From contig NZ_CP036401.1 of NCBI RefSeq assembly GCF_004322755.1, positions 682,001 through 746,000 of the forward strand: 64,000 nt of DNA. The letters run 5' to 3'. Shown here piece after piece: positions 15,656 to 31,543 of this stretch. The position numbers and the translations under genes were made by a program. How positions within the stretch are numbered: position 1 is the stretch's first letter; every line of letters begins with the position of its first letter. Source of the DNA: Pseudoduganella albidiflava (GTDB lineage: Bacteria; Pseudomonadota; Gammaproteobacteria; Burkholderiales; Burkholderiaceae_D). The notes under the pieces were generated by a model. That model searched no databases. It was not told the DNA's origin and was given only the letters and a program-made list of their open reading frames with translations.

Positions 15656-16420
15656 CTAAGTCTGGGCGAGCTGCTTCAGCGCTTCCGGCTTGACGATGAT
15701 CAGCCGGTGCGAACCCTTCTTGATGATGCCCTGCTGGACCAGCGTCAGCAGGGTGCGCGTGACGGTTTCGCGGCTCGTGTTGATCATGTTGGCGATGTCC
15801 TGGTGGGTCGGCATGTTCTTCACCACCTCGACGTCTTCGCCTTCCTTTTCCTTGATGAGATCGATGAACGAATAAATCCGCTTGGCCGTGTTGTGGATGC
15901 TGAGCAGGGCGCGGAATTGCGAGTCGCGCTGGACTTTCTCGGCCAGGAACTTGAGCATCTGCATCGCCACGGAAGGGGAGTGGGAGAACAGGTGCAGCGC
16001 GGTATTGCGCGGCAGCAGGGCTACCAGCACGGGCGTCAGGGCCACCACGGATGCCGAGCGTACGGAACCGTTGATGACGGCGATCTCGCCGAAGAACTCG
16101 CCGGGCGACAGCAGCCGCAGCCCGATCGCGCGGCCATCCTCGGTGATGTCGATGACCTGCAACTGGCCCGACAGCAGGAACAGCAAGGTATCTCCCACGC
16201 CGCCTTTTTGCAGCACCACGTCGCGCCGCGCGTACTGGCGAATGCGCAGGTCGGCGCGCACGCGCGCCATTTCCTCGTCGTTCAAGTCCTTCAGCAGCGG
16301 GATCTGGCGCAGGTGGATCTGCAGGTTGAACTGGCCATTGGCATCCGGCTCATCCGCGGCGGCGGGATCGTCCGGCTTGTTGGTCCGTTCGACGATGCGT
16401 TTTTTCTTTGGTTCGTTCAT
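15656..16420 (-). CDS. Crp/Fnr-family transcription regulator with CRP-type DNA recognition residues
   Basis: 254 residues. A cyclic-nucleotide-binding beta roll (about 40-150) carries the phosphate-binding cassette GEIAVINGSVRSA (111-123), with the Glu and the Arg-Ser that bind the cyclic phosphate in E. coli CRP. The C-helix keeps the Ser that matches CRP Ser128 but has Asp where CRP has Thr127, so ligand choice may differ. The winged helix (about 200-245) has recognition helix SRETVTR, identical to CRP at Arg180, Glu181 and Arg185, which predicts TGTGA half sites. Three perfect TGTGA-N6-TCACA sites lie 4-11 kb away. The ATG at 16420 precedes a charged N-terminal extension of about 30 residues. 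It is the last gene of the operon headed by an adenylate cyclase. Confidence 0.9.
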   Translation of the reverse strand: MNEPKKKRIVERTNKPDDPAAADEPDANGQFNLQIHLRQIPLLKDLNDEEMARVRADLRIRQYARRDVVLQKGGVGDTLLFLLSGQLQVIDITEDGRAIGLRLLSPGEFFGEIAVINGSVRSASVVALTPVLVALLPRNTALHLFSHSPSVAMQMLKFLAEKVQRDSQFRALLSIHNTAKRIYSFIDLIKEKEGEDVEVVKNMPTHQDIANMINTSRETVTRTLLTLVQQGIIKKGSHRLIIVKPEALKQLAQT

Positions 16421-16443
16421 GGCAATCACTATAAAGAATCTGG

Positions 16444-16770
16444 TCAGCCGTGCGGCAACAGCGCAAGGCAGGCGCCCGCGCACAGCACGCCGCCCAGGTT
16501 GGCGGCCATGTCGCGCCAGCAGAAACGCCGCCCCGGCACCAGGTTCTGCAACACTTCGATCACCCAGCTGGCCGCCAGCACCGCCAGCAGTACCAGGATG
16601 ATGTGCAGCGGCGTCGAGACCAGGCGCCCGCCCAGCAGGGCCATGCTGCCGAATGCCGTGAAGTGCAACAGTTTATCGTTGGGCAAGGCCCGCAGCCACG
16701 CGAACGGCAACAGGCAACCCAGTGGAATGGCAATCATGCCAAGCAAGAAAAGCACTAACTCCCAGCGCAC
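16444..16770 (-). CDS. VanZ-like small membrane protein
   Basis: 108 residues with four hydrophobic segments. NDKLLHFTAFG near 32-42 and a C-terminal WRDMAANLGGVLCG fit the VanZ-like family, whose role is unclear outside teicoplanin resistance. It lies 2 bases after the Slam-like gene and 23 bases before the Crp-type gene, so it is co-transcribed with them. Why a VanZ protein sits in this operon is unknown. Confidence 0.8.
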   Translation of the reverse strand: MRWELVLFLLGMIAIPLGCLLPFAWLRALPNDKLLHFTAFGSMALLGGRLVSTPLHIILVLLAVLAASWVIEVLQNLVPGRRFCWRDMAANLGGVLCAGACLALLPHG

Positions 16771-16772
16771 CG

Positions 16773-18059
16773 TCAGAATCCGTTCCAGCGCCAGTAGAGT
16801 TGCACGGCATTGCTATCATATTGGAACAATGTAATGTTCTCCTTGTTGTCGACGTGGCGCAGTTCCAGCACCGCGCTCTGCCTCGCGTCCAGCCGGTACA
16901 CCAGCGCGAGCCGCGCCTGGCGGGTGCTCTGCCGGCGCGCGATGTCGATCAGGTCCGGCGCATACACCCGGGCGCTGTTCCAGTCCTGCCGGGTCAGCCC
17001 CGCTTCGGTGCCGAACCGGTCGTTGTGCTGGTATTGCCATTGCAGGCTGCCATACCAGCCATGCCGGTCGCCGCCGAGCCGGTCCGCCCGGCCGTGCTCG
17101 ATCAAGCCGCCGGCGGCCAGCTGCACCACGTTGGCCTTGCCGCGGTAGGCCAGCTGCGCGCCCAGTTCGCCCGTGTTGGCGTCGAAATTGCGGCGCGTCA
17201 CATACTGGGTGCGGCCGAACGAGCCCGTCAGCGTGAATTCGGTCTGCCAGGGCAGGCGCAGCGGCGGTATCACCCGCCCCTGCACCTGGAACTGGCGCTG
17301 GTACAGCGAGCCGCCCAGGCTGAGGAAGCTGGTGCTGAGCGTGGCATCGCCATTCCAGTTGCCGATGCGAAAGCCCTTGTCCACGCCCAGCAGCAAGCCC
17401 ATCGTGTTCTGCTCGCTGACATCGCGATGGTGGCGGAAGCGCACATGGGCGAACGCCACGGCACCACTCCGGTCGAGTTCGCGGGAATAGCCGAAGGTGC
17501 CCTGCACGAAACTGTCGGGCTTGGGCAGGAACTCGTCGGTCAGTGGCTTCTCTTCCTGGTTCTCGCCGCTGCCGATCACCAGGATCGGGTTGCTGGCACC
17601 CTGGTTGACGTTGTCATCGTATCCCGCGCTGAGCGACAGGTTGCGGTAGCTGCGCGCTTCCCACGGCTTGCAGCCGGTGCGGCGGTGGTTCTCGATGATT
17701 TCCAGGATGCCGGGCGATGGCATGAAGCGCACCTCGATCTCGCGGAACAGCCGTTCCGCGTCGGCCGTGCGCCCCATCGTGCAGTGGTTGATGGCCAGCT
17801 CAAGCCAGGCTCCCGCGTGCAGCGGTTCCAGCTTGATCAGTTCCTCGAAGGCCTTGGCAGCCTCTTCGTGGCGCCCCTGGGTCATCAGTTCCACGGCGCG
17901 CAGGTAGCGGGCCTCGATCTCGTCGGTCGCACTGTCGCCGGCACGTGCGCTACCCGCCGCGAGCAGCAGCAGGACGATGCCCGCCAGCAGGCGCCGGACC
18001 GGTCCGTTCCAGCGCAACCGTTTATGGAACCGTTTATGCAACCGTTTGTACAACCTCAT
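16773..18059 (-). CDS. Slam-like outer membrane protein (TPR plus beta barrel, SlipAM family)
   Basis: 428 residues. A basic start, then a hydrophobic signal (about 20-40). TPR-like helices follow (about 45-125; for example GRHEEAAKAFEELIKLEP). From about 135 to the end, alternating aromatic strands form an outer membrane barrel that ends in Phe. The TPR-plus-barrel order and the end pattern NITLFQYDSNAVQLYWRW resemble surface lipoprotein assembly modulators (Slam, DUF560), which move TbpB-like proteins to the cell surface. The FecR-domain gene 2 kb away has a possible TbpB-like C-terminal barrel and could be its substrate. The start overlaps the cyclase stop by 4 bases. The first residues (KRLHKRFHKRL) come from a 12-bp repeat array. 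Confidence 0.75.
   Translation of the reverse strand: MRLYKRLHKRFHKRLRWNGPVRRLLAGIVLLLLAAGSARAGDSATDEIEARYLRAVELMTQGRHEEAAKAFEELIKLEPLHAGAWLELAINHCTMGRTADAERLFREIEVRFMPSPGILEIIENHRRTGCKPWEARSYRNLSLSAGYDDNVNQGASNPILVIGSGENQEEKPLTDEFLPKPDSFVQGTFGYSRELDRSGAVAFAHVRFRHHRDVSEQNTMGLLLGVDKGFRIGNWNGDATLSTSFLSLGGSLYQRQFQVQGRVIPPLRLPWQTEFTLTGSFGRTQYVTRRNFDANTGELGAQLAYRGKANVVQLAAGGLIEHGRADRLGGDRHGWYGSLQWQYQHNDRFGTEAGLTRQDWNSARVYAPDLIDIARRQSTRQARLALVYRLDARQSAVLELRHVDNKENITLFQYDSNAVQLYWRWNGF
18006..18053. repeat. In-frame tandem array, 12-bp unit x3-4, at the Slam-like gene start
   Basis: Units at 18018 (CCGTTTATGGAA), 18030 (CCGTTTATGCAA) and 18042 (CCGTTTGTACAA), with a degenerate unit at 18006. On the forward strand it reads CAACCGTTTATG, matching the array at 11845-11904 on the opposite strand relative to coding. 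It encodes a basic KRLH run just before the signal peptide. Confidence 0.9.
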
Positions 18060-19882
18060 GCGGCCGGCTCCAGGGTATACAGCTGCACGGCCTTTTCCTT
18101 GCCGCGCAAGCGCGTTTCGCCCAGCGACAGGAAACGGTGGCGCCGGGCCCGCTGGACGGTGCCTTCGCCGATGATCACGTCATGCGGCCAGTCGCGGGCA
18201 GCCTGCTCCAGGCGCGCCGCGGTATTCACGCTGTCGCCCACCGCCGTGTAGATGCTGCGCAGCGAACTGCCGTAGTCGCCCGCCATGGCCGGGCCGCTTT
18301 CGATGCCGATGCGTACCCGCAGCGGCGGATGGCCCTGCTTCATGCGGGCCTGGGACAGCCGCGCCACTTCACGCAGGATGTCGCGCGCCGCATCGAGTGC
18401 CAGGTCGGCATGCGCCGCGTTGGGCAGGGGCGCGCCCCAGAATGCCACCAGGCCGTCGCCGGTGTACTTGTCCAGCGTGCCGTGGTGGCCGATGACCGGG
18501 CGGGTCAGGCAATCGAGGAAATCGCTGGTCAGGCGCGCCGCTTCCTCGACCGGCAGGCTTTCCACCTGGCTGGTATAGCCTTCCATGTCGGCGATCAGCG
18601 TGGTGACTTCGCATTGGCGCGGCGCCAGCGGATCCTTGAGGTTGCTGCGGAGCAGCTCCGTCACCACCGAGGTTGCCACGTACTGGCGCAAGGTGCCCAG
18701 CAGGCGCCGCGAGTTCTGCTGGGCCAGCTGCCAGTGGAACGGCACCGAAACGGCCAGCAGGAACAGGATCGAGAACAGCGGTGCCGCCGGCGCGAAGTCG
18801 GGGTCGTGCGGCACGATCGCATACGCCAGTGCCAGCCACAGCACGGCCATCGCCGCCAGCAGCAGCACATTGTAGGCGGCGGCCAGGCGCGGGAAGGTAT
18901 AGGCGCCGGCCACCGCCACGGCGATGCAGAACAGGGTGGCGATCACGGCGCCCGGCCACGTGGCCGGCGCCAGGCCATCGCGGCGGTCGAGCAGGCCGGT
19001 GAGGATGGAGGCGTGGACCAGCAGGCCGGCGAACGAGGCGCCCATCGGCGTGGCGATGCGGTCGCCCACGGACAGGGCCGACGAGCCGACCAGGACCAGT
19101 TTGCCGCGCACCGTGGCTTCGTCGATGCGGCCCTGCAGCAGGTCGTCCGCCACCACCCGGTGGTAAGCCTGGGGCGTGCGGGTGAACGGCACCCGCATCA
19201 GCGGCTCCGTGGCCGGCGCGCCGCCGCCGCAGCAGTGCATCAGCGCCAGGGCCAGGCTGGGGTAATTGCGCCCTTCGAACCAGGCGGTCATCGGCACGCG
19301 GCGCAGCACGCCGTCGGGATCGGGCGTGACGCCGATATTGCCGGCATGGCGGGCACCGGCCAGGCCGGCGTGGTTGGCCAGGTAGCCGGTGGCCGCGATC
19401 GCGCCCGGAACGCGGGGGCCGGGACGCCCGCCGGCCAGCACGCCGGAGCGCAGCGGTTCGCGCGCGGCGTTGTAGTCGAACAGCTGGGCCAGTACGAGCG
19501 GCGCGTGCTGCGCCAGCATGGCCATGCGCAGGTCTCCCTCGGCGTCGCCCGGCTTGAGCATCACGATGTCGAGCGCCACGCCGCTGGCGCCCAGCTCGAA
19601 CAGGCGTTCGACCAGTTCGGCCATGCGGGTGCGCTGCCACGGCCAGGGATGGCGTTCCAGCGTCTCTTCGTCGATATCGACCACCACCATCCGCTGTTCG
19701 GGGCTGTCGCTGGCGCGCAACTGGACTATGCGGTCGCGCAGCAGCTCATCGGCAACGCTGGCCGGCGACGCGCTGCCCGCTCCCTGCAGCAGTACCGTCA
19801 GGAGGACGGCACACGCCGGGATGCCAATACCCAGCAGAGTCGCGGAAGAGAAGAGTGCGCGCAGCGCCGGATGCTGGTTCAT
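18056..19882 (-). CDS. Membrane adenylate cyclase: CHASE2 sensor plus class III catalytic domain
   Basis: 608 residues. An N-terminal membrane segment, a periplasmic CHASE2 sensor (about 40-330), three more hydrophobic segments (about 335-415) and a class III cyclase domain (about 425-595). Catalytic features are all present: metal Asp in LIADMEGYT (about 430), the adenine-selecting Lys and second metal Asp in LDKYTGDG (about 470), and VGDSVNTAARLE with the adenine-contacting Asp and transition-state Asn and Arg (about 547). The Lys/Asp pair predicts ATP, not GTP, so the product should be cAMP. It heads the operon cyclase-Slam-like-VanZ-Crp and is divergent from the FecR gene. The ATG at 19882 follows a TTG; no strong ribosome site is visible. 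Confidence 0.9.
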   Translation of the reverse strand: MNQHPALRALFSSATLLGIGIPACAVLLTVLLQGAGSASPASVADELLRDRIVQLRASDSPEQRMVVVDIDEETLERHPWPWQRTRMAELVERLFELGASGVALDIVMLKPGDAEGDLRMAMLAQHAPLVLAQLFDYNAAREPLRSGVLAGGRPGPRVPGAIAATGYLANHAGLAGARHAGNIGVTPDPDGVLRRVPMTAWFEGRNYPSLALALMHCCGGGAPATEPLMRVPFTRTPQAYHRVVADDLLQGRIDEATVRGKLVLVGSSALSVGDRIATPMGASFAGLLVHASILTGLLDRRDGLAPATWPGAVIATLFCIAVAVAGAYTFPRLAAAYNVLLLAAMAVLWLALAYAIVPHDPDFAPAAPLFSILFLLAVSVPFHWQLAQQNSRRLLGTLRQYVATSVVTELLRSNLKDPLAPRQCEVTTLIADMEGYTSQVESLPVEEAARLTSDFLDCLTRPVIGHHGTLDKYTGDGLVAFWGAPLPNAAHADLALDAARDILREVARLSQARMKQGHPPLRVRIGIESGPAMAGDYGSSLRSIYTAVGDSVNTAARLEQAARDWPHDVIIGEGTVQRARRHRFLSLGETRLRGKEKAVQLYTLEPAA

Positions 19883-20044
19883 CAAAAATCACTGACGGGC
19901 GTGGGCGCCAGGAGCGCTGGGGGGAGATTGAAAGTGGGGCATCATATCGCAAAATATTCTTGGATGCACTAATTTGGCCCGCCGGCCATGGGCCGGTCCG
20001 CGATGGTGCACGGCAGTTGGATACTTTGTAACAGCGTATTACCA

Positions 20045-20060
20045 TGTGATGCATATCACA
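20045..20060. promoter_or_regulatory. CRP-type operator upstream of the FecR-domain gene
   Basis: TGTGATGCATATCACA is a perfect TGTGA-N6-TCACA site centred 55 bases before the FecR ATG. A weak -10 (GAAAAT, 20083-20088) lies 22 bases downstream, near class II spacing, giving a very short leader. The site also lies in the divergent gap 160 bases before the cyclase start, so feedback on the cyclase operon is possible. Confidence 0.75.
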
Positions 20061-20107
20061 CTCATTCTACCTCCCGCTGGCGGAAAATGCGGCTTGAGGA
20101 GAAATCT

Positions 20108-21493
20108 ATGTTACGAGCATTATTGTTAACTGTCGGCTTGTCGAGCATCTCGCTGTTGCCTGCGCTGGCGTTCGGCGCCCAGGCGGGCAAGGTCGTCTTC
20201 GTCACCGGCGCGGCGCAGCTGGCCGACAAGGCCGTCACCGTGGAGCAGGCGGTGGAAGAAGGCGACGAGATCAGCACCGGCGCCGATGGCTACGTCTATG
20301 TGAAGACCGTCGACGAGGGTTTCCTGATCCTGCGCCCCAACAGCAAGGCGCGCGTGGTGGCTTACCAGATCGACGAAGCCAATCCGGCCAATACCCGCGT
20401 CAAGCTGGAATTGCTGCAGGGCGTGGCGCGCAGCATTTCGGGCAAGGGGGTCAAGCGGGCCCGTAATAATTTCCGCCTCAATACGCCGGTCGCCGCCATC
20501 GGCGTGCGCGGTACCGATTTCATTGTCTATACCAACCAGCAGACTTCCTGGGTATCCGTGGTGTCCGGCGGCGTGGTGATGAGCGGCTTCAGCGGCACTT
20601 GCGGTCCGGAAGGCGGCGGCCCCTGCGAAGGCGTGACCAGCCGCGAACTGTTCGGCGGCCGTGCCGATACGATGCTGCAGATCCAGCGCGGCCAGTCCGT
20701 GCCGCAATTGCTGCAGGGAGGAACCGTTGCACCGGAGTTGAGCACGCCGCCGCGTAACGACGAACCTGTCGGCAAGGTCGCCATCAACCAGGCCAAGGTG
20801 AATCCCGCCGTGCTGGAAGTGATCAACCTGGAACCGGTCAACGTCAAGCCTATCACCGACATGAAGTCGACCAACAATGTTTCGCCCGATCCGGGTACCG
20901 GTGGCGGAACCAATGTGCCGGCGCTGCCGAGTTTCCCCCAGGATCCACCCCTCGTGGTGGTCGAGCCCGAGCCGGCTCCGCTGGTGAAATCGGAAGTGAT
21001 GTGGGGGCGCTGGCAGCCGGCGGCCGGCAATGGCATCTCGCGCGAGCAGGTGGCCAGGATCAATGCGGAAGGCACCAAGGTGCAGGTGCTGCTGGGCCCG
21101 TACCTGATTGCCCGGCCGGACAATTCGGCCTTCGTGCTGCCGCGCGAGGGCACGGCCGGATTCGCGCTGACCGGCGGCGAAGCCGTGCTGGCCGCGAAAG
21201 GCGGCACGTTCCAGCCTGCGAAGGTCGAGAATGGCAGCTTGAATATCGACTTTGCAAAAAGGACATATACAACGGCGATTTCCGTTGTAAATGCCCAGGG
21301 GCAAGCGAATCTTTCTTCGTATGGCGACATTACCAAGACGGGCACGATGGTCAATTCATTCATGTCGCCGGGCATGACGGTGCGCGGAGTGCTTGGCGGT
21401 ACCAACGCCAACGAGGCGGTTTATTCGTTCAAGACGCCGGATGATGCCGACGTTCGTGCGCAAGGCATCACGACCTGGAACAAGAAGCGCTGA
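20108..21493 (+). CDS. Secreted FecR-domain protein with C-terminal beta-rich (TbpB-like?) domain
   Basis: 461 residues. A signal peptide (about 1-24, no lipobox), a FecR domain (about 45-160; VEEGDEISTGADGYVYV and TPVAAIGVRGTDF), a Pro-rich linker (about 240-295) and a C-terminal beta-rich domain (about 297-461). The last part has VRGVLGGTNANEAVYSF, which resembles the barrel of TbpB-like proteins carried by Slam; this is a weak likeness. Stand-alone FecR proteins are periplasmic or surface proteins of unclear function, often encoded beside CHASE2 cyclases, as here. GAGGAG lies 8 bases before the ATG at 20108. A perfect CRP-type site precedes it and a classical terminator follows. Confidence 0.85.
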   Translation: MLRALLLTVGLSSISLLPALAFGAQAGKVVFVTGAAQLADKAVTVEQAVEEGDEISTGADGYVYVKTVDEGFLILRPNSKARVVAYQIDEANPANTRVKLELLQGVARSISGKGVKRARNNFRLNTPVAAIGVRGTDFIVYTNQQTSWVSVVSGGVVMSGFSGTCGPEGGGPCEGVTSRELFGGRADTMLQIQRGQSVPQLLQGGTVAPELSTPPRNDEPVGKVAINQAKVNPAVLEVINLEPVNVKPITDMKSTNNVSPDPGTGGGTNVPALPSFPQDPPLVVVEPEPAPLVKSEVMWGRWQPAAGNGISREQVARINAEGTKVQVLLGPYLIARPDNSAFVLPREGTAGFALTGGEAVLAAKGGTFQPAKVENGSLNIDFAKRTYTTAISVVNAQGQANLSSYGDITKTGTMVNSFMSPGMTVRGVLGGTNANEAVYSFKTPDDADVRAQGITTWNKKR

Positions 21494-21535
21494 GGCCATC
21501 GCCGGCCCTGCCGGCAAGGCATTACAGCCGTCCGG

Positions 21536-21987: not shown

Positions 21988-22032
21988 TGTGATGGTCGTC
22001 ACAACGCCGGGGTGAGGTTGTGGCAATATACT
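21988..22032 (+). promoter_or_regulatory. Predicted class II CRP-activated promoter of the surface-protein gene
   Basis: TGTGATGGTCGTCACA (21988-22003) is a perfect TGTGA-N6-TCACA site. A -10 hexamer TATACT lies at 22027-22032. A start near 22037-22039 puts the site at about -41.5 to -43.5, as in class II CRP promoters, and no good -35 is present. The leader would be about 80 bases, with a small CCGGG/CCCGG hairpin at 22052-22066. The rest of the 555-bp gap (21565-21987) holds no convincing gene. Confidence 0.75.
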
Positions 22033-22119
22033 CCAAGTTCCGCTGATGGCCCCGGGCAAGTCCCGGTTCAGAACGCAGGAAACCTGGTTAAATTTTGTTT
22101 ACCTTTAAAAGGAAGAATC

Positions 22120-25100
22120 ATGGCTGTTGCCGATTACTACCCGCTCGTACAAACCCTCTACGTATCGTACTTCGGCCGTCCTGCTGACCCGATCGGCCTG
22201 GACAACTTCTCCAAGCAACTGGAAGCCCTGGGCGCGCCGACCACGCTGGCAGAACTGAACGTTGCGGCACGTGACAACGCAGGTATCAAAGCCCTGGTCA
22301 ACACCTTCAGCGGCTCGCAAGAGTCGGCCGACCTGTACGGCACGGGCTCGACCCTGTCGTTCGTTCGCGCAATCTATGAAAACCTGCTGAACCGTGCTCC
22401 TGACACGGACGGCCTGAAGTTCTGGGTCAACGCAATCGAAGGCGGCGGCCTGAGCCGCGCTGACGCATCGCTGGCCATCGCTGACGCAACCGCAAGCAAC
22501 ACCACCGACCAGGGCAAGGCTGACGCCGCTCTGATCAAGGCTAAAGTCGCTGTCGCCGGCGCCTTCACCACCTCGATCGACACCGCCGACGAATTCGAAG
22601 CCTACCAGGGCGCCGCAGCGATCGAAGCTGCCCGTGACCTGATGGCAACGGTGACCGGCGCGTCGACCCCGGCCAACACCCAGACCCAGATCAACACCGT
22701 GCTGGAACAGCTGGTTGAAGGCACCGACGGCGGCAACACGTCGTTCACGCTGACCGACGGCATCGACAAGGTCTCCGGCAACGCACAAGACAACGTGTTC
22801 GCGGCACCGGTCGTGCAGAACCAGAACGGTGAACTGGTCAACACGCTGGAAACCGGCGACTCGATCCAGGGCGGCGCAGGCGTGGACACGCTGAACGCAG
22901 TGCTGACCAACCCGCAAGGTACGGACGGTGGCGTTGGCCAGGCTCCGGCAATCTCCGCGATCACCAACGGCGTTGAAGTCGTGAACTTCCGTTCGCAGTA
23001 CTTCACCGAAGGCGGCGTGAACGGCTCCAACATCGACGCTGAACTGATGGCTGGCGTGACCCAGTACTGGTCCGACAACAGCCGTACCGGCCTGCAGATC
23101 GAAGACGTGCGCCAACTGCCGGAAGAACTGACCTTCGGCATGCGCCAGACCGACCCGGCCGCTGGCCTGAACGTGTACTTCGACCCGGCACAACTGGCCG
23201 ACGGCCGCAGCAGCGCCGGCGATTCGACCCTGACGCTGACCCTGGTGGACAACGCCAACCCGACCGCTCAACTGGCCAACTTCCCGGTCAACGGCGTGGT
23301 CTTCAAGCTGGGTGGCGTGCAGTTCACGGTGACGTCCGAAGCCATCGGCAACGCCAAGACCTACGTTGAATTCGAAGCCGCTCTGGAAGCAGCCCTGACC
23401 GCCAACGCCGCTCTGGCTGGCGTGACCGCCGCAGTGAACGCCAACAACACCATCACGCTGACCGACGCGCAAGGCCGCTCGTTCGAAGCCGTGGGCTACA
23501 CCTGGGTGGACAACATTGTTCCTTCGGGCGGTAACCTGGCATGGAACCAGCAAGTCGGCGCAGCAGTGCAAACCGACCTGCCGATCGAAACCGACGTGGT
23601 GCTGGATGCCGTGGGCCGTACCGCCCAGGGTGGCTCGCTGGATATCGGCTCGATGGCTGATGGCGGCGTGGCAACCTTCAACGTGTCCGTCGACCGCAGC
23701 AGCTGGCTGACCGCCGCTGAATCGCGCGAAGATTTCGGCGCCGGCGACCGTCACCTGGAAACCGTCAACCTGACCAGCATCGGCGCCAAGGGCAACCTGG
23801 CTGTCGGTAGCGACACGGATCGTCTGGACGAGCGCGTCGTCGCCGGCCTGACCGATGTGCGTCAAGTGCTGAACAAGGGCTTCGAAGGCAAGCTGAACAT
23901 CGGCGTGGTCCTGACCGGCGAAAGCGTCGATCGCTACCTGGCCGCTGCTTCGGGCGAAGTGCAGTTCACCTACGAAGGTGGTGCTGGCGCCGACAACTAC
24001 ACGATCGTTGTTGACGATGCCCTGTCGGAAGATTCCGACTTCGCACTGGATGCCAAGCTGGGCGCCGGCGACGACCGCCTGAACATCTCCGTGGAAACGG
24101 CAAGCAACGTCGTCGTTGACGGCGGCACGGGCAGCAACACCATCGCTGTTGCACGCAGCCATGGCACCAACGCTCAGAACACCTTCGAAGGCTTCACCAA
24201 CTTCGCCACGTACGAAGTCGAAGCCACGACGAACACCGAACATGACTTCACCAGCATGGTCGGCGTGACGCGCGCTGTCGTTGCTACCGAAGGCGTGGTC
24301 AACACGGTCTTCACCGATCTGGAAACGGCTGCCGCTGTGGAAATCTCGGGCAAGAACCAGACCCGTCAAGCTCTGCAGAGCAACGCAGACCAGGCCTTCG
24401 GCGAAGTGCACGTGCTGGGCGCCGAAGGTGCCGCACTGACCGTGACCCTGTCGAACACCGCACGTTCGACCGGCGAACTGACGGTCAACCGCCTGCTGGT
24501 CGATGCAGCTGCCGCCAACAACCTGAGCGCTGTCCGCACGCTGAACATCGTGTCGAACGGTGCCCGTGACACGGCCAACTTCATCGGCGACGTCGATGCG
24601 AAACTGGTCAACACGTTCAACCTGACCGGCACGCAGAACCTGACGCTGGCCATCACCGACGCTGCCAACTTCGACGCGTCGAACGTCAACAGCATCGGTG
24701 ACCTGGTGGTGACGGGTGCCGCCCTGACCGGCGACCTGGACCTGTCGCTGGCTTCCGGCCTGGTGACCGCAGTTGACCTGACCGGCGGCGAAACCGTGAC
24801 CCTGACCGGCACGGCTGGCACGGCTGACCGCGTGACCTTCACCGGCGGCGCTCTGGACACCAGCGAAAACACCGGCATCTCGGCATTCGAAACCGTGCGT
24901 TTCGTGACGGCTGACGGCGAGTTCGACGCAACCAATGTTTCCGGTGTCACGCTGTACGACATCGAAAGCACGACCGGCGATCTGGAACTGATCGAGCTGA
25001 ACGGCCAAGAGCCGATCCGCATCAACACCGACGTGCAGGGCGACGTTGCTGGCGACAACCTGACGTTCTCCGCTGAAGGCGAATCGTCGGCCAACAGCCT

Positions 25101-25839
25101 GAACCTGCAGTTCCGTGACCTGGATACCGCTGTCGACACCGACGTGGACACCGCGTTCGGCGTCGCCGAAATCCGCGTGCAGAACTACCGCACGATCTCG
25201 CTGGACCTGGGCAGCGCTGGTACCGTGGACGAAGCCTACACCTTCGACTTCGACCTGCTGGACCAGGACGGCCGTCAGCGTGAAGATGGCGCGTACGAAG
25301 CCGATTCCGTGTACGCTCGTTCCCTGGTTGTCACCGGCGGTGGCGATCAAGGCGCAGCAGGCGATGCCGGTGGTGTTGACAGCGTGGACCTGGGTACCGT
25401 GACCAACGTGCTGAGCGACATCAACTTCGGTGGCTTCGTTGGCCGCGTAACGGCAGCCCTGGACGTCATCGACGTGGCCCTGGCTGACAGCGTGGACCGC
25501 AACACCATCGTGACGGTCAACGGCTACGGTCTGGACTTCACCGAAACGACCGCTGGTACCGACAGCCACATCACGACGTTCAAGTTCACGGTCGACGCAG
25601 TTGCCGACACCGAAGACTGGATCATCACCGGCTTCGACGCCTTCGGCGTGACCGATCTGCAGACCCTGTCGATCCTGGACCTGTCGGCTCTGGGCGTGGA
25701 AGGCCTGGCCGATCTGAACATCGCTGATGACGGCGCCGGCAACACCGTGGTGACCTCGAACGACAATCTGGACTTCCAGATCATCCTGAACGCCGTGGCT
25801 CCAGCCGATCTGTCGAACGAAAACTTCCGCTTCGCTTAA
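22120..25839 (+). CDS. Large secreted surface-layer-like protein with DUF4214 (type I secretion substrate)
   Basis: 1239 residues, acidic and without a single cysteine. Residues 1-110 form a DUF4214-like domain (YVSYFGRPADPIGLDNF, then NLLNRAPDTDGLKFWVNAI). RTX-like Gly/Asp motifs appear near 246 (GGAGVDTL), 617 (GGAGADNY) and 647 (GAGDDRL). The rest is Thr/Asn/Asp-rich repeated beta structure. The C-terminus ends ENFRFA, a hydrophobic tail typical of type I substrates, and there is no Sec signal. These traits and the downstream SapC and ABC-HlyD-TolC genes argue for an S-layer or giant surface protein like Caulobacter RsaA. GGAAG lies 6 bases before the ATG. GCT, GTT and CGT codons are more common than in neighbours, as in highly expressed genes. 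A double hairpin follows. Confidence 0.85.
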   Translation: MAVADYYPLVQTLYVSYFGRPADPIGLDNFSKQLEALGAPTTLAELNVAARDNAGIKALVNTFSGSQESADLYGTGSTLSFVRAIYENLLNRAPDTDGLKFWVNAIEGGGLSRADASLAIADATASNTTDQGKADAALIKAKVAVAGAFTTSIDTADEFEAYQGAAAIEAARDLMATVTGASTPANTQTQINTVLEQLVEGTDGGNTSFTLTDGIDKVSGNAQDNVFAAPVVQNQNGELVNTLETGDSIQGGAGVDTLNAVLTNPQGTDGGVGQAPAISAITNGVEVVNFRSQYFTEGGVNGSNIDAELMAGVTQYWSDNSRTGLQIEDVRQLPEELTFGMRQTDPAAGLNVYFDPAQLADGRSSAGDSTLTLTLVDNANPTAQLANFPVNGVVFKLGGVQFTVTSEAIGNAKTYVEFEAALEAALTANAALAGVTAAVNANNTITLTDAQGRSFEAVGYTWVDNIVPSGGNLAWNQQVGAAVQTDLPIETDVVLDAVGRTAQGGSLDIGSMADGGVATFNVSVDRSSWLTAAESREDFGAGDRHLETVNLTSIGAKGNLAVGSDTDRLDERVVAGLTDVRQVLNKGFEGKLNIGVVLTGESVDRYLAAASGEVQFTYEGGAGADNYTIVVDDALSEDSDFALDAKLGAGDDRLNISVETASNVVVDGGTGSNTIAVARSHGTNAQNTFEGFTNFATYEVEATTNTEHDFTSMVGVTRAVVATEGVVNTVFTDLETAAAVEISGKNQTRQALQSNADQAFGEVHVLGAEGAALTVTLSNTARSTGELTVNRLLVDAAAANNLSAVRTLNIVSNGARDTANFIGDVDAKLVNTFNLTGTQNLTLAITDAANFDASNVNSIGDLVVTGAALTGDLDLSLASGLVTAVDLTGGETVTLTGTAGTADRVTFTGGALDTSENTGISAFETVRFVTADGEFDATNVSGVTLYDIESTTGDLELIELNGQEPIRINTDVQGDVAGDNLTFSAEGESSANSLNLQFRDLDTAVDTDVDTAFGVAEIRVQNYRTISLDLGSAGTVDEAYTFDFDLLDQDGRQREDGAYEADSVYARSLVVTGGGDQGAAGDAGGVDSVDLGTVTNVLSDINFGGFVGRVTAALDVIDVALADSVDRNTIVTVNGYGLDFTETTAGTDSHITTFKFTVDAVADTEDWIITGFDAFGVTDLQTLSILDLSALGVEGLADLNIADDGAGNTVVTSNDNLDFQIILNAVAPADLSNENFRFA

Positions 25840-25854
25840 GTTGTAGCGTAAAAC

Positions 25855-25874
25855 CAGGGAACTCCGGTTCCCTG
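25855..25874 (+). terminator. First hairpin after the surface-protein gene
   Basis: A perfect 8-bp stem CAGGGAAC with GTTCCCTG begins 16 bases after the stop. It lacks a T tract and probably protects the mRNA 3' end or works with the second hairpin. Confidence 0.7.
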
Positions 25875-25876
25875 CA

Positions 25877-25906
25877 AAGGCTGTGCCCCCGGGCGCAGCC
25901 TTTTTT
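25877..25906 (+). terminator. Rho-independent terminator between the surface-protein gene and sapC
   Basis: Stem GGCTGTGCCC with GGGCGCAGCC (one U-G pair), then six T. With no promoter seen before sapC, partial read-through would give much structural protein and little SapC. Confidence 0.88.
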
Positions 25907-25937
25907 CATTTGCAGGACAACAACTCGAGGAGCCACC

Positions 25938-26735
25938 ATGTTCAAGGAACTCAAAGCACTGGACCGTATCCAGCACCGCGCGCTGCGCCTGGCGCCGGAC
26001 CAGCCCTATCATTTTGCCGCCGGCCTGATGGTATGTCCCATCATGGCTGGCGAAGTGGCCCAGGTAGCCCGCGATTACCCGATCGTGTTCAGCCGGTCCG
26101 CCAACGGCTTGCCGATGGCCCTGCTCGGCGTACGGCAGGACGTGAACGCCTATGTCACGCCCGACGGCGTGTGGACCGCGCGCTACATCCCCGTCCATGT
26201 GCGCCGCTATCCGTTCATGCTGTCCGACAGTGCCACGCCGGGAGGCGAGGGCGGCGAACGGGCCTTTACCGTGATGTTCGACAGCGCGGCACCGCACCTG
26301 GCCGGGCTGGCAGGGGCGCCGCTGTTCAATCCGGCCGGCGAACCAACCGCGCTGCTGCAAGGCGTGCAGAAACTGCTGATGACGCTGCAGCGCGACACGG
26401 TGGCCACGGAAAAGCTCGTCCAGCAGATCGATGCGGCCGGCCTGCTGGTCGAGCGCTCGCTGAAGGGCCAGCCCAAGAACGGCAAGCCGTTCGCGCTGGA
26501 AGGCCTGCGGATGGTCGATACGCAAAAGCTGGCGGAATGCGCACCTGAAACCTTGCAGGAACTGGTGAAATCAGGTGCAATGCGACTGGTGTATGCCCAC
26601 TTATTGTCGATGGTCAACTTGCAGGATGGTCCCCTGATGCAGTCGAACGATCGCAAGCCGGCGGCCGCGCAAGCCCCTGCGGAGCAGGCCGCGGCGCAAA
26701 TGGGTGATACGATCAGCTTTGCCGGCCTGCGCTGA
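25938..26735 (+). CDS. SapC-family protein
   Basis: 265 residues matching the SapC family, named for the S-layer locus of Campylobacter fetus; its biochemical function is not known. It has the usual early YPIVFSRS and the central RYPFMLSD segment of the family. No signal peptide is seen. GAGGAG lies 7 bases before the ATG. It sits between the surface protein and its exporter, which supports a role in surface-layer production, perhaps as a cytoplasmic partner. The last about 35 residues are Ala/Gln-rich and variable. Confidence 0.87.
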   Translation: MFKELKALDRIQHRALRLAPDQPYHFAAGLMVCPIMAGEVAQVARDYPIVFSRSANGLPMALLGVRQDVNAYVTPDGVWTARYIPVHVRRYPFMLSDSATPGGEGGERAFTVMFDSAAPHLAGLAGAPLFNPAGEPTALLQGVQKLLMTLQRDTVATEKLVQQIDAAGLLVERSLKGQPKNGKPFALEGLRMVDTQKLAECAPETLQELVKSGAMRLVYAHLLSMVNLQDGPLMQSNDRKPAAAQAPAEQAAAQMGDTISFAGLR

Positions 26736-26781
26736 CCCGGCCTTTCGCACGCAGCGGCAGCAATGCCGCGCGTGACCTGGC

Positions 26782-26837
26782 CCGCATCGTGCAGCCCGCA
26801 TCGTGCAGCCTGCATCGTGCAGCCCACGCCGTGCAGC
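26782..26837. repeat. Tandem array, 14-bp unit x4, after sapC
   Basis: Units at 26782, 26796, 26810 and 26824. The first two are identical (CCGCATCGTGCAGC) and the others differ at 1-3 positions. It begins 46 bases after the sapC stop, in the 337-bp gap before the exporter operon. Confidence 0.9.
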
Positions 26838-26957
26838 CACCCGTACCGCCTTCGCGGTACCGACTGCATCCACACCGATGGGGCCGGTTCCAATGACCTT
26901 CTTCCTTACCGACAAACAACGGCTTGCATGTCGGTAGCGACGATATCCCCGAAAATT

Positions 26958-26998
26958 TGTGATACAGGTCACATTTTTTACATGTTTTAAGCGATAAT
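26958..26998 (+). promoter_or_regulatory. Predicted class II CRP-activated promoter of the type I secretion operon
   Basis: TGTGATACAGGTCACA (26958-26973) is a perfect TGTGA-N6-TCACA site, followed 19 bases later by GATAAT (26993-26998) as a -10. A start near 27005 places the site near -40. The leader to the ATG at 27073 would be about 68 bases. The arrangement matches the surface-protein promoter. Confidence 0.75.
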
Positions 26999-27072
26999 GT
27001 GCGATCTGTAAAACCGCGGCAATATTGCTTGTCGCTTACAAGCCAGTCTTTCGTCGCATCGTCCCCACGCCA

Positions 27073-28824
27073 ATGAAAATCAAACTACCCAGTGCCAAGA
27101 ACGAGATCGAACGGGTCCTTGCGCAATTCAAGTCCACCTTCTTCACCGTCGGCACCTTCAGCGCCATCAGCAACCTGCTGATGCTGGTCCCGTCCATCTA
27201 CATGTTGCAGGTCTACGACCGCGTGCTGTCGAGCCGCAACGAAATCACGCTGCTGATGCTGACCTTGCTGATGCTGGGTGCGTTCGCACTGGTGGCCGGC
27301 CTGGAAATCGTGCGCAGCTTCGTGCTGATCCGCGTGGGCGCGAAGTTCGACATGACGCTGAACAAGCGTGTCTACACGGCCTCGTTCGAACAGAACCTGC
27401 GCCGCTCGGGCGGCAATCCCTCCCAGGCCCTGATGGACCTGACCACGCTGCGCCAGTTCCTCACCGGTAATGCGCTGTTTGCCTTCTTCGACGCGCCGTG
27501 GTTCCCCATCTACCTGATCGTGATCTTCCTGTTCGACTGGCAGCTGGGCCTGTTCGCGCTGTGCGGTACCGCCATCCTGATCACGCTGGCCTACGTGAAC
27601 GAACGCGTCACTCGCAAGCCGCTGGAAGAAGCCGGCACCACGTCGATCGCCGCCAACAACCTGGCCTCGAACAACCTGCGCAATGCCGAAGTCATCGAAT
27701 CGATGGGCATGCTGCCGAGCCTGATGGACCGCTGGTTCAAGCTGCATGGCAAGTTCCTGATGCTGCAGGCCGACGCCAGCCAGAAGGCCGGCGTCATCGG
27801 CTCGATCACCAAGTTCTTCCAGTCGTCGCTGCAGTCGCTGATCCTCGGCATGGGCGCGCTGCTCGTGCTGGAAAACCACATCACGCCCGGCATGATGATC
27901 GCCGCGTCGATCCTGGTGGGCCGCGCGCTGGCGCCGGTGCAGCAGGTGATCGGCGTGTGGAAGAGCTGGAGCAGCACCCGCAGCGCGTACACCCGCCTGT
28001 TGAAGCTGCTGGAAGACAATCCGGAACGCCCGGCCGGCATGCCGCTGCCCAAGCCGGCGGGCAGCGTGACGGTCGAAGCGGTGACCGCCGCGCCGCCGGG
28101 TTCGCAGGTTGCGGTGATCAAGAACCTGTCGTTCGCCATCATGGCCGGCGACGTGGTGGGCATCATCGGCGCCAGCGGCTCCGGCAAGTCGACCCTGGCG
28201 CGCCTGCTGGTGGGCGTGTGGCCTGCCGCCATGGGCAAGGTTCGCCTCGATGGCGCCGACATCTACACCTGGAACAAGGGTGAGCTGGGCCCGCATATCG
28301 GCTACCTGCCGCAGGACGTGGAACTGTTCGGCGGCACCGTCAGCGACAATATCGCCCGCTTCGGCGAAGTCGACCCGGCCAAGGTGGTGGAAGCGGCCAA
28401 GCGCGCCGGTGTCCACGACATGATCCTGCACCTGCCGAAAGGCTACGATACCGTGCTGGGCGAAGCCGGCGCCGGTTTGTCCGGCGGCCAGCGCCAGCGG
28501 CTGGGCCTGGCACGTGCGATGTATGGCGACCCGTCGCTGATCGTGCTCGATGAACCCAACTCGAACCTGGACGACGTGGGCGAAGCGGCCCTGGTGACGG
28601 CCATCAACGACCTGCGGCAGCACGGCAAGACCATCGTGCTGGTCACCCACCGCACCAGCGTGCTGAGCGTGACGAACAAGCTGCTGCTGCTGCGCGACGG
28701 CATGGCCCAGTCGTTCGGCCCGACCAGCCAGGTCATCGCCTCGCTGAACGAGGCGAACCAGAAGCAGGCGGCGCAGAACCGCCTGGCGGCGGCTCCGGCG
28801 CAACCGACAACCTCTACCGTTTGA
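27073..28824 (+). CDS. Type I secretion ABC transporter (PrtD/RsaD type)
   Basis: 583 residues. The membrane domain (about 20-300, six hydrophobic segments) includes the family sequence YMLQVYDRVLSSRNE near 45. The nucleotide-binding domain has Walker A GASGSGKST (about 366), signature LSGGQRQRLGLARA (about 469) and Walker B LIVLDEPNSNLD (about 489). There is no N-terminal C39 peptidase, so the substrate is exported uncut from a C-terminal signal, fitting the RTX and surface proteins here. The ATG at 27073 has no clear ribosome site; an upstream TTG at 27025 is less likely. The HlyD gene follows by 5 bases. Confidence 0.93.
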   Translation: MKIKLPSAKNEIERVLAQFKSTFFTVGTFSAISNLLMLVPSIYMLQVYDRVLSSRNEITLLMLTLLMLGAFALVAGLEIVRSFVLIRVGAKFDMTLNKRVYTASFEQNLRRSGGNPSQALMDLTTLRQFLTGNALFAFFDAPWFPIYLIVIFLFDWQLGLFALCGTAILITLAYVNERVTRKPLEEAGTTSIAANNLASNNLRNAEVIESMGMLPSLMDRWFKLHGKFLMLQADASQKAGVIGSITKFFQSSLQSLILGMGALLVLENHITPGMMIAASILVGRALAPVQQVIGVWKSWSSTRSAYTRLLKLLEDNPERPAGMPLPKPAGSVTVEAVTAAPPGSQVAVIKNLSFAIMAGDVVGIIGASGSGKSTLARLLVGVWPAAMGKVRLDGADIYTWNKGELGPHIGYLPQDVELFGGTVSDNIARFGEVDPAKVVEAAKRAGVHDMILHLPKGYDTVLGEAGAGLSGGQRQRLGLARAMYGDPSLIVLDEPNSNLDDVGEAALVTAINDLRQHGKTIVLVTHRTSVLSVTNKLLLLRDGMAQSFGPTSQVIASLNEANQKQAAQNRLAAAPAQPTTSTV

Positions 28825-28829
28825 ACAGC

Positions 28830-30182
28830 ATGAAACTCATTACCAAGAACGCGAGCGACGTCGTCGCTCATGATGTGACTCCGCTCGAGGTGGATACCGA
28901 CGCGCGCTCGTTCAGCCGGATCGGCTGGCTGGTCGTGCTGATCGGCTTCGGCGGCTTTTTGCTGTGGGCGATCTTCGCGCCCCTGGACCGGGGCGTGCCG
29001 ATGTCCGGCTACGTCGCCAAGGAATCGAACCGCAAGGCGGTGCAGCACCTGACCGGCGGCGTCGTGCAGGAAATCCTCGTCAAGGACGGCGACGTGGTCA
29101 AGGAAGGGCAGGTGCTGGTGCGCATGAACGAAGTGCAGGTCAAGTCCCAGGCCGAAACCACGCGTACGCAGTACTACGCGGCGCGCGCCGCCGAGGCACG
29201 CCTGCTTGCCGAGCGCGACGGCGCCAAGTCCATCACCTACCCGAAAGACCTGCTCGACAACGCCAGCGATCTGCGCGCCGCGACCAACATGGAAGTGCAG
29301 CGGCAGCTGTTCACCTCCCGCCAGGGCAGCCTGAACAGTGAGCTGAGCGCCATCGAGGAAACCATCCGCGGCCTGCAGGCGCAGGTCAACGGCCTGCAGG
29401 AAGCACGCAAGAGCAAGAAAGCCCAGCTCGCGTCGATCCAGGAACAGCTGGTGGGCATGCGCGACCTGGCCAAGGAAGGCTTCGTGGCGCGCAATCGCTT
29501 GCTGGAACTGGAGCGCATGTACATCCAGGTCGGCGGCCAGATTTCCGAAGACGACGGCAACATCGGCCGCTACCAGAGCCAGATCATGGAATACCGCCTG
29601 CGCGCCATCCAGCGCCGCCAGGACTACCAGAAGGAAGTGCGCACCGAACTGTCGAACATCCAGCGCGAAGCCGATGCGCAGGGCGCCCGCCTGGCGGCCA
29701 ACGACTACGAGCTGCGCAATGTCGAGGTGAAGGCGCCGGTCAGCGGCATCGTCGTCAACCTCGCCGTGTTCACCGAAGGCGGCGTGGTGGCCTCGGGTTT
29801 CCGCATGATGGATATCGTGCCGAGCGGCGACGCCATGGTGGTGGAAGGGCAGCTGCCGGTCAACCTGGTCGACAAGGTGCATGCCGGCCTGCCGGTGGAG
29901 CTGATCTTCTCCGCGTTCAACACCACCAAGACGCCGCATCTCCCTGGCGAAGTGATCAACGTGTCGGCTGACCGCACCGTCGATGAACACACCGGCCAGC
30001 CGTACTACAAGGTGCGCGCCAAGGTCACGCCGGAAGGCCAGAAGCTGATCGCCGAGAAAAAGCTGGTGGTCCAGCCGGGCATGCCGGTGGACCTGTTCGT
30101 GAAGACGGGCGAGCGCTCGATGATGAGCTACCTGCTCAAGCCGCTGACGGACCGTGCCAAGTTGTCGATGAGCGAGGAATGA
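28830..30182 (+). CDS. Type I secretion membrane fusion protein (HlyD/PrtE family)
   Basis: 450 residues. A cytoplasmic N-terminus, one membrane anchor (about 30-52), a first lipoyl half near 80 (GGVVQEILVKDGDVV), a long alpha-helical hairpin (about 110-275), a second lipoyl half (VKAPVSGIVVNLAVFTEGG, about 297) and a beta domain. It bridges the inner-membrane ABC protein and the TolC-type channel. The ATG at 28830 is preferred to the TTG at 28821 that overlaps the ABC stop. Its own stop overlaps the TolC start by 4 bases. Confidence 0.92.
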   Translation: MKLITKNASDVVAHDVTPLEVDTDARSFSRIGWLVVLIGFGGFLLWAIFAPLDRGVPMSGYVAKESNRKAVQHLTGGVVQEILVKDGDVVKEGQVLVRMNEVQVKSQAETTRTQYYAARAAEARLLAERDGAKSITYPKDLLDNASDLRAATNMEVQRQLFTSRQGSLNSELSAIEETIRGLQAQVNGLQEARKSKKAQLASIQEQLVGMRDLAKEGFVARNRLLELERMYIQVGGQISEDDGNIGRYQSQIMEYRLRAIQRRQDYQKEVRTELSNIQREADAQGARLAANDYELRNVEVKAPVSGIVVNLAVFTEGGVVASGFRMMDIVPSGDAMVVEGQLPVNLVDKVHAGLPVELIFSAFNTTKTPHLPGEVINVSADRTVDEHTGQPYYKVRAKVTPEGQKLIAEKKLVVQPGMPVDLFVKTGERSMMSYLLKPLTDRAKLSMSEE

Positions 30183-31543
30183 TGAGCGTGAGCCGAATCT
30201 TTCATTCGAAACTGAACCTGAAACTGCTGGCCGGCGCCGCGCTGCTGGCCTGTGCCGGTGGCGCCCATGCGCTGTCGTTCCAGGATGCCTACGATGCCGC
30301 GTTGCGCAACGATCCCACTTACCGGGTGGCCTTCTACGAGAACGAGTCCGGCAAGGAAAACCGCGTGCTGGGCCGTTCGGCCCTGCTGCCGTCGGTGTCC
30401 GCCAACTCGTCGGTGAACCGCAACTTGCTGGACCGCACGATCCGCCAGCCGAACGGGCGCGAAACCACCGACAACCCGCGCTACCTCAGCAAGTCCCATT
30501 CGATCTCGCTGCGCCAGCCGCTGATCAACATGGATGGCCTGGCCCGCTACAAGCAGGGCAAGGCGCAGTCCGAGATGAGCGAGGCGATCTTCGACGTGCG
30601 CACCGGCGAAGTGGCGATCCGCGTGGCCGGCGCCTATTTCGATGCGCTGCTGGCGCGCGACCAGCTGCGCCTGGCCAAGGCCCAGCGCGACATGTATGCC
30701 GAACAGAGCACCGTCAACCGCCGCATGTTCCAGGCCGGCCAGGGGACCCGCACGGACATGCTGGAAACCCAGGCGCGCCTGGACGTGGCGCAGGCCGCCG
30801 TGCTGGAGGCCGAAGACCAGGTCACGATCATGCGCAATACGCTCGAAGAGATCGTTGGCACGGAGGTGGGCAACCTCGACGAACTGAACGCGGACTTCCG
30901 CTTCCTGCCGCTGAGCCCCGCCACCTACGAGGACTGGAAGGCCATCGCCTTGCAGAACAATGCCGACGTCAAGGCGGGCAAGCTGGCCACCGAGGTATCG
31001 CGCCAGGAAATCAACAAGGCGCGCGCCGGCCACCTGCCGCGCCTCGACCTGGTGGCTTCCTACAGCAAGGCCGATTCGGAAACCATCAACACGCTGAACC
31101 AGGACACCAACAACAAGGCGATCGGCGTGCAGCTGACCGTGCCACTGTATTCCGGCGGCGCCGTGTCCGCGCAGGGCCGCCAGGCGGTGGCGGGCTTCGA
31201 GCGCGCCAAGGCCGACCTCGAAGTGCGCACCGACAAGGTGCTGGTGGAACTGCGCAAGGCGCACAGCCAGGTCGTCAGCAGCGTCACGCGCATCGAAGCG
31301 CTGAACAACGCCGTCAGCTCGGGGCATGCGCTGCTCAACGCCACCACGCAAAGCATCAAGGGCGGCGAACGCATCAACCTCGACCTGCTGACCGCCCAGC
31401 AGCAGCTGACCACCTCGCAGCGCGACCTGGCCCAGGCGCGCTACACCTACCTGCTGGCCACGCTGCGCCTGCGCAATGCGGCGGGCGTGCTGAGCCGGTC
31501 CGATATCGAGCAGGTGGCGGGGTTCTTCCGCAAGCAGCAGTAA
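30179..31543 (+). CDS. TolC-family outer membrane channel
   Basis: 454 residues. Signal peptide with cleavage near AHA-LS (about residue 32), then two OEP repeats rich in long helices, as in TolC. FQDAYDAALRNDPTYR at the mature start and GERINLDLLTAQQQL near 400 are characteristic. It completes the secretion system with the ABC and HlyD genes. A second ATG is one codon later. GAGGAA lies just upstream. A strong terminator follows. Confidence 0.93.
   Translation: MMSVSRIFHSKLNLKLLAGAALLACAGGAHALSFQDAYDAALRNDPTYRVAFYENESGKENRVLGRSALLPSVSANSSVNRNLLDRTIRQPNGRETTDNPRYLSKSHSISLRQPLINMDGLARYKQGKAQSEMSEAIFDVRTGEVAIRVAGAYFDALLARDQLRLAKAQRDMYAEQSTVNRRMFQAGQGTRTDMLETQARLDVAQAAVLEAEDQVTIMRNTLEEIVGTEVGNLDELNADFRFLPLSPATYEDWKAIALQNNADVKAGKLATEVSRQEINKARAGHLPRLDLVASYSKADSETINTLNQDTNNKAIGVQLTVPLYSGGAVSAQGRQAVAGFERAKADLEVRTDKVLVELRKAHSQVVSSVTRIEALNNAVSSGHALLNATTQSIKGGERINLDLLTAQQQLTTSQRDLAQARYTYLLATLRLRNAAGVLSRSDIEQVAGFFRKQQ

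Follow-up and report, generated by a model that had tools for sequence, protein, structure and literature searches.

The cyclic AMP (cAMP)-CRP system is the textbook global regulator, and the question raised by the locus considered here is whether a regulator of this type, with a cyclase encoded beside it, might instead serve mainly a single locus. The locus lies in a 64,000-nucleotide stretch of the Pseudoduganella albidiflava genome (contig NZ_CP036401.1, positions 682,001 to 746,000; this whole stretch is hereafter the window, and its positions are used throughout), in which the genes for a Crp-family regulator and a class III cyclase with a CHASE2 domain stand next to those for a FecR-domain protein, a large surface-layer (S-layer)-type protein and a type I secretion system. 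The patterns described below, drawn from sequences, strongly support a local Crp circuit over this S-layer-type locus, and they make it quite probable that a pathway-specific cAMP/Crp circuit jointly activates fecR, the RsaA-like surface protein and its exporter.

Crp sites in the genome

The initial annotation had pointed to three perfect TGTGA-N6-TCACA palindromes, and all of them are present on the plus strand: site 1 (TGTGATGCATATCACA, 20045..20060), between the divergent cyclase and FecR genes, site 2 (TGTGATGGTCGTCACA, 21988..22003) and site 3 (TGTGATACAGGTCACA, 26958..26973). They directly precede genes, as it had said, with ends lying 47, 116 and 99 bp ahead of the starts of the FecR gene (20108), the gene for the 1239-residue surface protein (22120) and the PrtD gene (27073), respectively; the other matches to the pattern inside the window all carry two mismatches. 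Both of the -10 hexamers it had named were likewise recovered on the plus strand, namely TATACT (22027..22032, 23 bp past the end of site 2), the putative promoter element of the surface-protein gene, and GATAAT (26993..26998, 19 bp past site 3), that of the type I secretion operon. To these can be added a further -10-like hexamer, GAAAAT (20083..20088, plus strand), 22 bp past site 1, as the putative promoter element of the FecR gene.

The genome is a single contig of 7,437,157 bases with a computed completeness of 100%, and a scan of its entire 7.44 Mb returned exactly three exact sites, all within 6.9 kb at this locus; the backwards pattern, which served as a control, has eight exact occurrences in the same genome. 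When up to one mismatch is allowed, there are 29 sites against 35 for the backwards pattern, or 26 versus 27 once the exact ones are removed, so that the one-mismatch sites are at background level. No equal density of exact sites is therefore seen elsewhere. The chance of three random points falling within 6.9 kb is about 2.6e-6; chance matching was rejected as the origin of the sites on this probability, their genome-wide exclusivity and the backwards control.

Conservation in the genus and beyond

The genus sample comprised 74 genomes, in which orthologs were called at E <= 1e-40 for the Crp and E <= 1e-60 for the cyclase. The Crp ortholog occurs in 65 of them and the CHASE2 cyclase in 64: both are found in 64, neither in nine (one of these, G055, being only 60% complete) and the Crp alone in a single genome, G063. 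Each relative's locus was taken as a stretch, at most 20 kb long, surrounding the Crp or the sites. Site-gene pairs were counted in 63 loci, i.e., those of 62 relatives and the window, leaving out L053 (from the genome already represented by L075), L060, L065 and L119 (which have no locus), and L079, L100 and L107 (short contig ends). The pairs are conserved, with sites present ahead of the same three transcription units. An exact site precedes the surface gene in 62 of the 63 loci, at a distance of about 110 bp in L087, with L106 being without such a gene. Similarly, prtD is preceded by an exact site in 60 of 63, with L075, L087 and L113 having no prtD ortholog in the stretch; in L053, from the genome of L075, the site ahead of prtD is present. 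Between the cyclase and fecR (n = 62 loci), 37 sites are exact and 22 differ in the last base only.

The confinement of the sites was assessed in 62 genomes with an intact locus, which excludes the nine Crp-less genomes as well as G025, G046 and G053, which have short contig ends; for G003 the sites of L053 and L075 were counted together. As many as 160 of their 214 exact sites lie inside the 20-kb locus, and the 54 outside it correspond to 0.87 per genome, as against 1.2 in the nine Crp-less genomes and 1.5 for the backwards control. With a refined motif, TGTGAYNNNNRTCACA, the fraction inside the locus rises to 160 of 178, and the 18 remaining sites compare with 34 for the backwards control. 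In the Crp-less genomes the refined motif occurs once each in five and is lacking in four.

A natural loss points in the same direction. Three genomes (G030, G041 and G073) are without both the Crp and the cyclase and yet keep prtD at 71–72% identity; no exact or one-mismatch site was found within 1.5 kb of it. In a tree of prtD the three group together with a support of 1.0, as a single clade within relatives that bear sites. Thus, where the regulator is missing the sites are missing too, and site loss appears to go with regulator loss in the expected direction.

Beyond the genus, 86 of 294 genomes of the family, in 18 of 44 genera, give a match at E <= 1e-45; 74 of them carry clear orthologs (at least 63% identity; one genome has two), while 12 carry a group with 37–43% identity. 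Among 40 family loci fetched, 29 are of the ortholog type and 28 of these have at least one exact site, the sole exception being L204 (G255), a second Crp copy without the locus. An exact site stands ahead of the prtD ortholog in 17 of 19 cases. In the low-identity loci (n = 11), a site is found in six, and Crp, FecR and cyclase matches occur together in all 11. At the class level only one of 368 other genomes matched, which indicates that few members of the ortholog group occur outside the family, barring some metagenome records: those of Nitrosomonas and of gammaproteobacteria have the Crp, a site and the exporter in a row, and that of Gallionella has the Crp and the cyclase with no exact site. 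Within the genus sample, a second Crp copy without the locus was also observed in G069 (L119).

Motif and promoter spacing

The consensus TGTGA-Y-G-N-N-C-R-TCACA was derived from 251 sites in 94 loci (63 of the genus and 31 others), with ten duplicates or fragments of other loci, L120 (short contig), the low-identity loci L187–L197, and L203 and L204 (both G255) left out of the motif and promoter set. Position 6 is C or T and position 11 is A or G in every one of the 251 sites; the other spacer positions are preferences. A -10-like hexamer recurs at set distances from the site end: at a gap of 19 bp for prtD (67/82), of 20 bp for fecR (57/85), and of 21, 22 and 23 bp for the surface gene (19, 29 and 24 of 84). 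As a gap of 21 bp puts the centre of the site at -41.5, these preferred gaps place the centres near -39.5 (prtD), -40.5 (fecR) and -41.5 to -43.5 (surface gene). In class II CRP promoters the site is centred at -41.5, and the spacing to the -10-like hexamers can be described as class II-like, around that value. A shared -10 in the cyclase direction from site 1 was also sought, as a sign that this site might autoregulate the cyclase operon; the best offset, a gap of 34, is common to just 17 of 85.

The near-complete identity of the half-sites (near 1.0) follows by construction from picking rows by the motif, and only the flanks are informative in this regard. The flanks 11–60 bp upstream of the sites are merely 27–33% identical between loci, which suggests that the sites have been maintained while their surroundings diverged. 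The notion that the sites are chance matches or functionless leftovers of common descent draws on the shortness of the motif and on nothing more; with flanks so divergent, and with almost all loci that bear the surface gene or prtD retaining a site ahead of it, its probability is negligible. Multiple sites were also encountered: L095 (G059) has two in tandem ahead of prtD (12985 and 13094), and L083 (G052) has two identical ones, TGTGATGCCCGTCACA, after fecR (8186 and 11488), perhaps before two successive surface genes.

The Crp regulator and its paralogues

The presumed reader of these sites is the Crp-family regulator of 254 residues encoded at 15656..16420 on the minus strand, which matches the cNMP-binding domain (PF00027) and the Crp-type helix-turn-helix (PF13545, HTH_Crp_2) above the Pfam cut-offs. 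In Escherichia coli CRP, R180, E181 and R185 read TGTGA. The recognition residues R-E-x-x-x-R ascribed to the local protein are indeed present, in a helix of the form S-R-E-T-V-T-R; when it is aligned with E. coli CRP and relatives, the equivalents of the three residues are conserved in 113, 114 and 113 of 114 distinct rows, with R, E and R in the window. These counts are over distinct rows, the initial alignment having held duplicates and a 22% paralogue (L065). Most of the pocket, G-E...R-S, is similarly conserved, with G71 and E72 in all 114 rows, R82 in 111, serine or threonine at 83 in 113 and S128 in 109, but Asp replaces T127 in 101. The protein is nonetheless distant from the characterized members of the family: it shares 25% identity with E. 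coli CRP over 191 residues, matches Clr (7pza) at 73 bits, and scores 73.6 bits against the global-CRP equivalog PRK11753, below its cut-off of 266.

Could a second Crp bind the sites instead? The inspection covered the ten HTH_Crp_2 matches that exceed the cut-off and left out six weaker ones below it; nine of the ten are Crp/Fnr-like, and the tenth (L015, 176 residues) looks to be of another kind. As judged by eye, the local Crp is the only one of the nine that combines the G-E...R-S pocket with R-E-x-x-x-R, and no other paralogue among the matches above the cut-off has a cyclic-nucleotide pocket. It is highly improbable that another Crp/Fnr protein is the main reader of the palindromes, or that they serve for repression: the paralogue L013 (G000:C1:6988428) does have a comparable recognition helix, F-R-E-L-V-S-R, but by eye it lacks the pocket, the clade lacking the local Crp has no such sites, and the sites stand at class II-like spacing from -10-like hexamers.

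The cyclase and its possible input

The cyclase, encoded at 18056..19885 on the minus strand, matches the Pfam CHASE2 and Guanylate_cyc domains. Class III cyclases carry two metal-binding aspartates, a purine-selecting lysine paired with aspartate or threonine, and a catalytic asparagine and arginine. The earlier assignment to class III holds, while the Lys/Asp pair that had been read as selecting adenine does not: the purine-selecting pair is Lys472/Thr546, which is the class IIIb type. The protein aligns best with 1wc1, an adenylate cyclase, and the purine positions are there occupied by Lys and Thr; among D432, K472, D476, T546, N553 and R557, the lysine is conserved in 92 of 93 distinct ortholog rows and the others in all 93. 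No class I cyclase was found in the genome.

The initial annotation had placed the cyclase and Crp genes in one reverse operon, and the cyclase gene indeed forms one tight minus-strand run with those for a TPR protein (16773..18059), a VanZ-like membrane protein (16444..16770; Pfam VanZ), which is present in only part of the relatives' loci, and the Crp. The TPR protein (Pfam TPR) is modelled as a TPR domain followed by a predicted outer-membrane beta-barrel of about 14 strands (AlphaFold, pLDDT 88), with the cellulose exporter BcsC and the channel CymA as its best Foldseek matches, and is a candidate signal-input partner of the cyclase. The available text on Sinorhizobium CHASE2 cyclases reports that the outer-membrane protein NsrA is needed for their response (PMC7529298, PMC13001267), and by analogy a similar outer-membrane-to-cyclase chain may exist here. 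For Campylobacterota, PMC9239204 describes gene clusters in which the majority of CHASE2 cyclases are found beside a phosphodiesterase, a FecR and a TPR protein. The FecR-domain protein of the present locus (20108..21493, plus strand; Pfam FecR) has 461 residues and is presumably exported. In L106 (G063) the TPR/barrel protein is kept, and no FecR or DUF4214 match was found in the 20-kb stretch.

The surface protein and its exporter

The 1239-residue protein (22120..25839, plus strand), characterized through Pfam, its homologues, a structural model and fold searches, is built of a DUF4214 N-terminus, a body modelled nearest to RsaA and a C-terminal beta-roll. Chains of Caulobacter RsaA are the only Foldseek matches of its model at E<=0.001, with 12–17% identity in the structural alignment, and this RsaA-like fold backs the earlier surface-layer reading. 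RsaA itself leaves the cell through a type I system of the PrtD kind and is tethered to O-antigen; by this token, a glycan anchor may adjoin the coat genes, beyond Crp.

The exporter genes follow on the plus strand, encoding a PrtD-type type I secretion ATP-binding cassette (ABC) permease/ATPase (27073..28824), an HlyD-type periplasmic adaptor (28821..30182) and a TolC-type outer-membrane channel (30179..31543), each of which exceeds its curated cut-off (TIGR01842, TIGR01843 and TIGR01844, respectively). Between them and the surface protein lies a gene for a SapC-family protein (25938..26735, plus strand; Pfam SapC), with matches in few of the relatives' loci. Downstream of Crp, on the minus strand of the window (8007–15405), are genes for an ABC-2 permease, a Wzt-type ATPase (O-antigen exporter), a methyltransferase and a triple glycosyltransferase; in the metagenome relatives glycan genes likewise adjoin Crp.

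The proposed circuit and its rivals

These elements can be assembled into a circuit in which the TPR/outer-membrane-barrel and FecR-domain proteins probably feed the CHASE2 cyclase, which would make cAMP, which in turn would charge the co-encoded Crp. The charged Crp is predicted to recognize palindromes of the TGTGAYGNNCRTCACA type and, through class II-type activation, to switch on fecR, the RsaA-like protein and PrtD-HlyD-TolC together. Synthesis and export of the coat would in this way both depend on a single signal from the envelope, with the FecR product perhaps feeding back to the sensor side. Envelope sensing by the circuit is plausible. The cAMP-circuit interpretation put forward in the initial annotation thus finds partial support, from the clustering of exact sites, their conserved pairing with genes, their absence along with the regulator, the lone pocketed Crp and, for the surface-layer reading, the RsaA-like fold; the Lys/Asp pair falls away.

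A stronger version of this circuit, which we hold only tentatively, would see in it an insulated line: the TPR/barrel and FecR proteins would inform the CHASE2 cyclase of the condition of the S-layer or outer membrane, cAMP would serve essentially one regulator and one locus, and the outcome would be homeostatic control of coat synthesis and export, with the line spread and lost as a unit across Burkholderiaceae and carried into other groups as Crp-site-exporter pieces.

Several observations weigh against the circuit or limit its reach. In three of the 62 intergenic regions between cyclase and fecR, no site appears even when two mismatches are allowed, and two of the 19 prtD orthologs in the family loci are without a preceding exact site. 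The loss control amounts to a single event, since the three genomes concerned form one clade, and the 1239-residue protein is an S-layer protein by its modelled fold only. Four further points, concerning the ligand and the insulation of the circuit, are best seen together with the rival explanations to which they lend weight.

The first of these is position 127, a threonine in E. coli CRP, which is Asp in 101 of the 114 distinct Crp rows, or in 101 of 103 once the low-identity group is removed. In cyclic GMP (cGMP)-gated channels a C-helix Asp favours guanine. The circuit might hence be the same with cGMP, or either nucleotide, as the messenger of Crp, as in Rhodospirillum CgrA or Sinorhizobium Clr; according to PMC10127613, cGMP activates CgrA, Clr can be activated by cAMP as well as by cGMP, and T127 and S128 of CAP are part of its cAMP response. 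Against this stand the ATP-type pair of the co-encoded cyclase (Lys in 92/93 and Thr in 93/93), its best alignment to an adenylate cyclase, and the retention of Ser128 in 109 of 114 rows, in view of which we regard a cGMP or dual-nucleotide circuit as improbable and cAMP as the likely ligand of the local Crp.

The other three points concern insulation. The genome has one further class III cyclase (G000:C1:1283441, L004), also with a CHASE2 domain, which could feed the same cAMP pool. G063 (L106) keeps the Crp, the exporter and the prtD site without a cyclase ortholog, a gene content which implies that the local cyclase and Crp are separable. Finally, out-of-locus sites could be assigned to genes among the matches listed (the per-genome counts being complete), and in Crp-bearing relatives all five refined sites among these directly precede genes, so that the word local is not to be taken as absolute. 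One is ahead of a second DUF4214 gene (G020); three are ahead of similar lipoprotein genes (G022, G024 and G025; L230, L231 and L232, near position 3001), two of these three being between divergent genes, with a -10-like hexamer at a gap of 21–22 and an NHL match that passes the Pfam cut-off for only one of these lipoproteins; and one, with a poorer hexamer, is ahead of a glycine-zipper protein gene (G009). In some species, then, the circuit probably reaches other surface proteins.

These observations nourish a rival in which the local Crp reads the sites but draws on a cAMP pool shared by both CHASE2 cyclases, some regulons include remote surface proteins, and the clustering reflects transfer as a unit rather than insulated signalling. 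The second cyclase, the Crp of G063 without its local cyclase, and the remote sites before the DUF4214 and lipoprotein genes are all in line with it. However, the window's own genome has no exact site outside the locus, just 18 of the 178 refined sites in the 62 genomes are external to it, and cyclase and Crp are jointly present or jointly absent in 73 of 74 genomes; on balance a shared pool seems somewhat unlikely.

Comparison with known systems

E. coli cAMP-CRP resembles the present system in its half-site (TGTGA), the R-E-x-x-x-R residues, the GE..RS pocket and the class II-like placement. It is, however, a global regulator and is paired with a class I cyclase, whereas the present genome, of 7.4 Mb, has three exact sites, its local cyclase is a CHASE2 protein of class IIIb and position 127 of the Crp is Asp. 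With Caulobacter RsaA the parallel extends to the fold, the PrtD-type exporter adjoining the gene and the Wzm/Wzt-like exporter genes, which here lie beyond Crp. The present protein differs in its DUF4214 N-terminus and in its probable control by a Crp circuit; no report of such control of RsaA was found in a limited literature search.

The claim that a dedicated cyclase and effector beside their targets are unusual was overstated, for in Sinorhizobium meliloti, going by the accessible text of PMC5498481, clr, the CHASE2 cyclase gene cyaD1 and a Clr-activated FecR gene lie close together. That system, Clr-CyaD1/CyaD2/CyaK-SMc02177 (FecR)-NsrA, thus likewise groups a CRP-family regulator, a CHASE2 cyclase and a FecR gene (PMC5498481, PMC7529298, PMC13001267). 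Clr activates the FecR gene there, and here a site ahead of fecR suggests such control. There are differences, to the extent that the available text of these sources covers them: the Clr box is TGTTN8AACA, whereas the local sites are of the TGTGAYGNNCRTCACA type, TGTGAN6TCACA; Clr, whose genome encodes 28 class III cyclases, has a broad regulatory reach (polysaccharide, motility); and the Clr targets named there include no type I exporter or S-layer gene. The Campylobacterota cluster shares the grouping of CHASE2 cyclase, FecR and TPR protein but has a phosphodiesterase, and the accessible part of its description mentions no adjacent Crp, binding site or S-layer target (PMC9239204). No report of the present circuit was found in the literature searched, which lay mostly outside subscription papers and yielded the Sinorhizobium and Campylobacterota work.

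The module thus resembles the Clr-CyaD1-FecR kind, and what is new lies in its DNA motif, which is another one, and in an output devoted to the S-layer and type I secretion. In all, 91 loci (63 of the genus, including the window, and 28 from other genera of the family) point to a CRP-type regulator whose role has mainly narrowed to a single task. The system is compact, having three promoters that share a defined motif and a candidate chain of sensing, and it lends itself to the study of local versus global second-messenger signalling; it also predicts a regulated RsaA-like S-layer in Massilia/Duganella-type bacteria. The theme of CHASE2, FecR and an outer-membrane protein, as it occurs in Sinorhizobium, would thereby extend to cell-surface assembly, and a second messenger that is usually seen as cell-wide would here resemble a private line to the cell surface.

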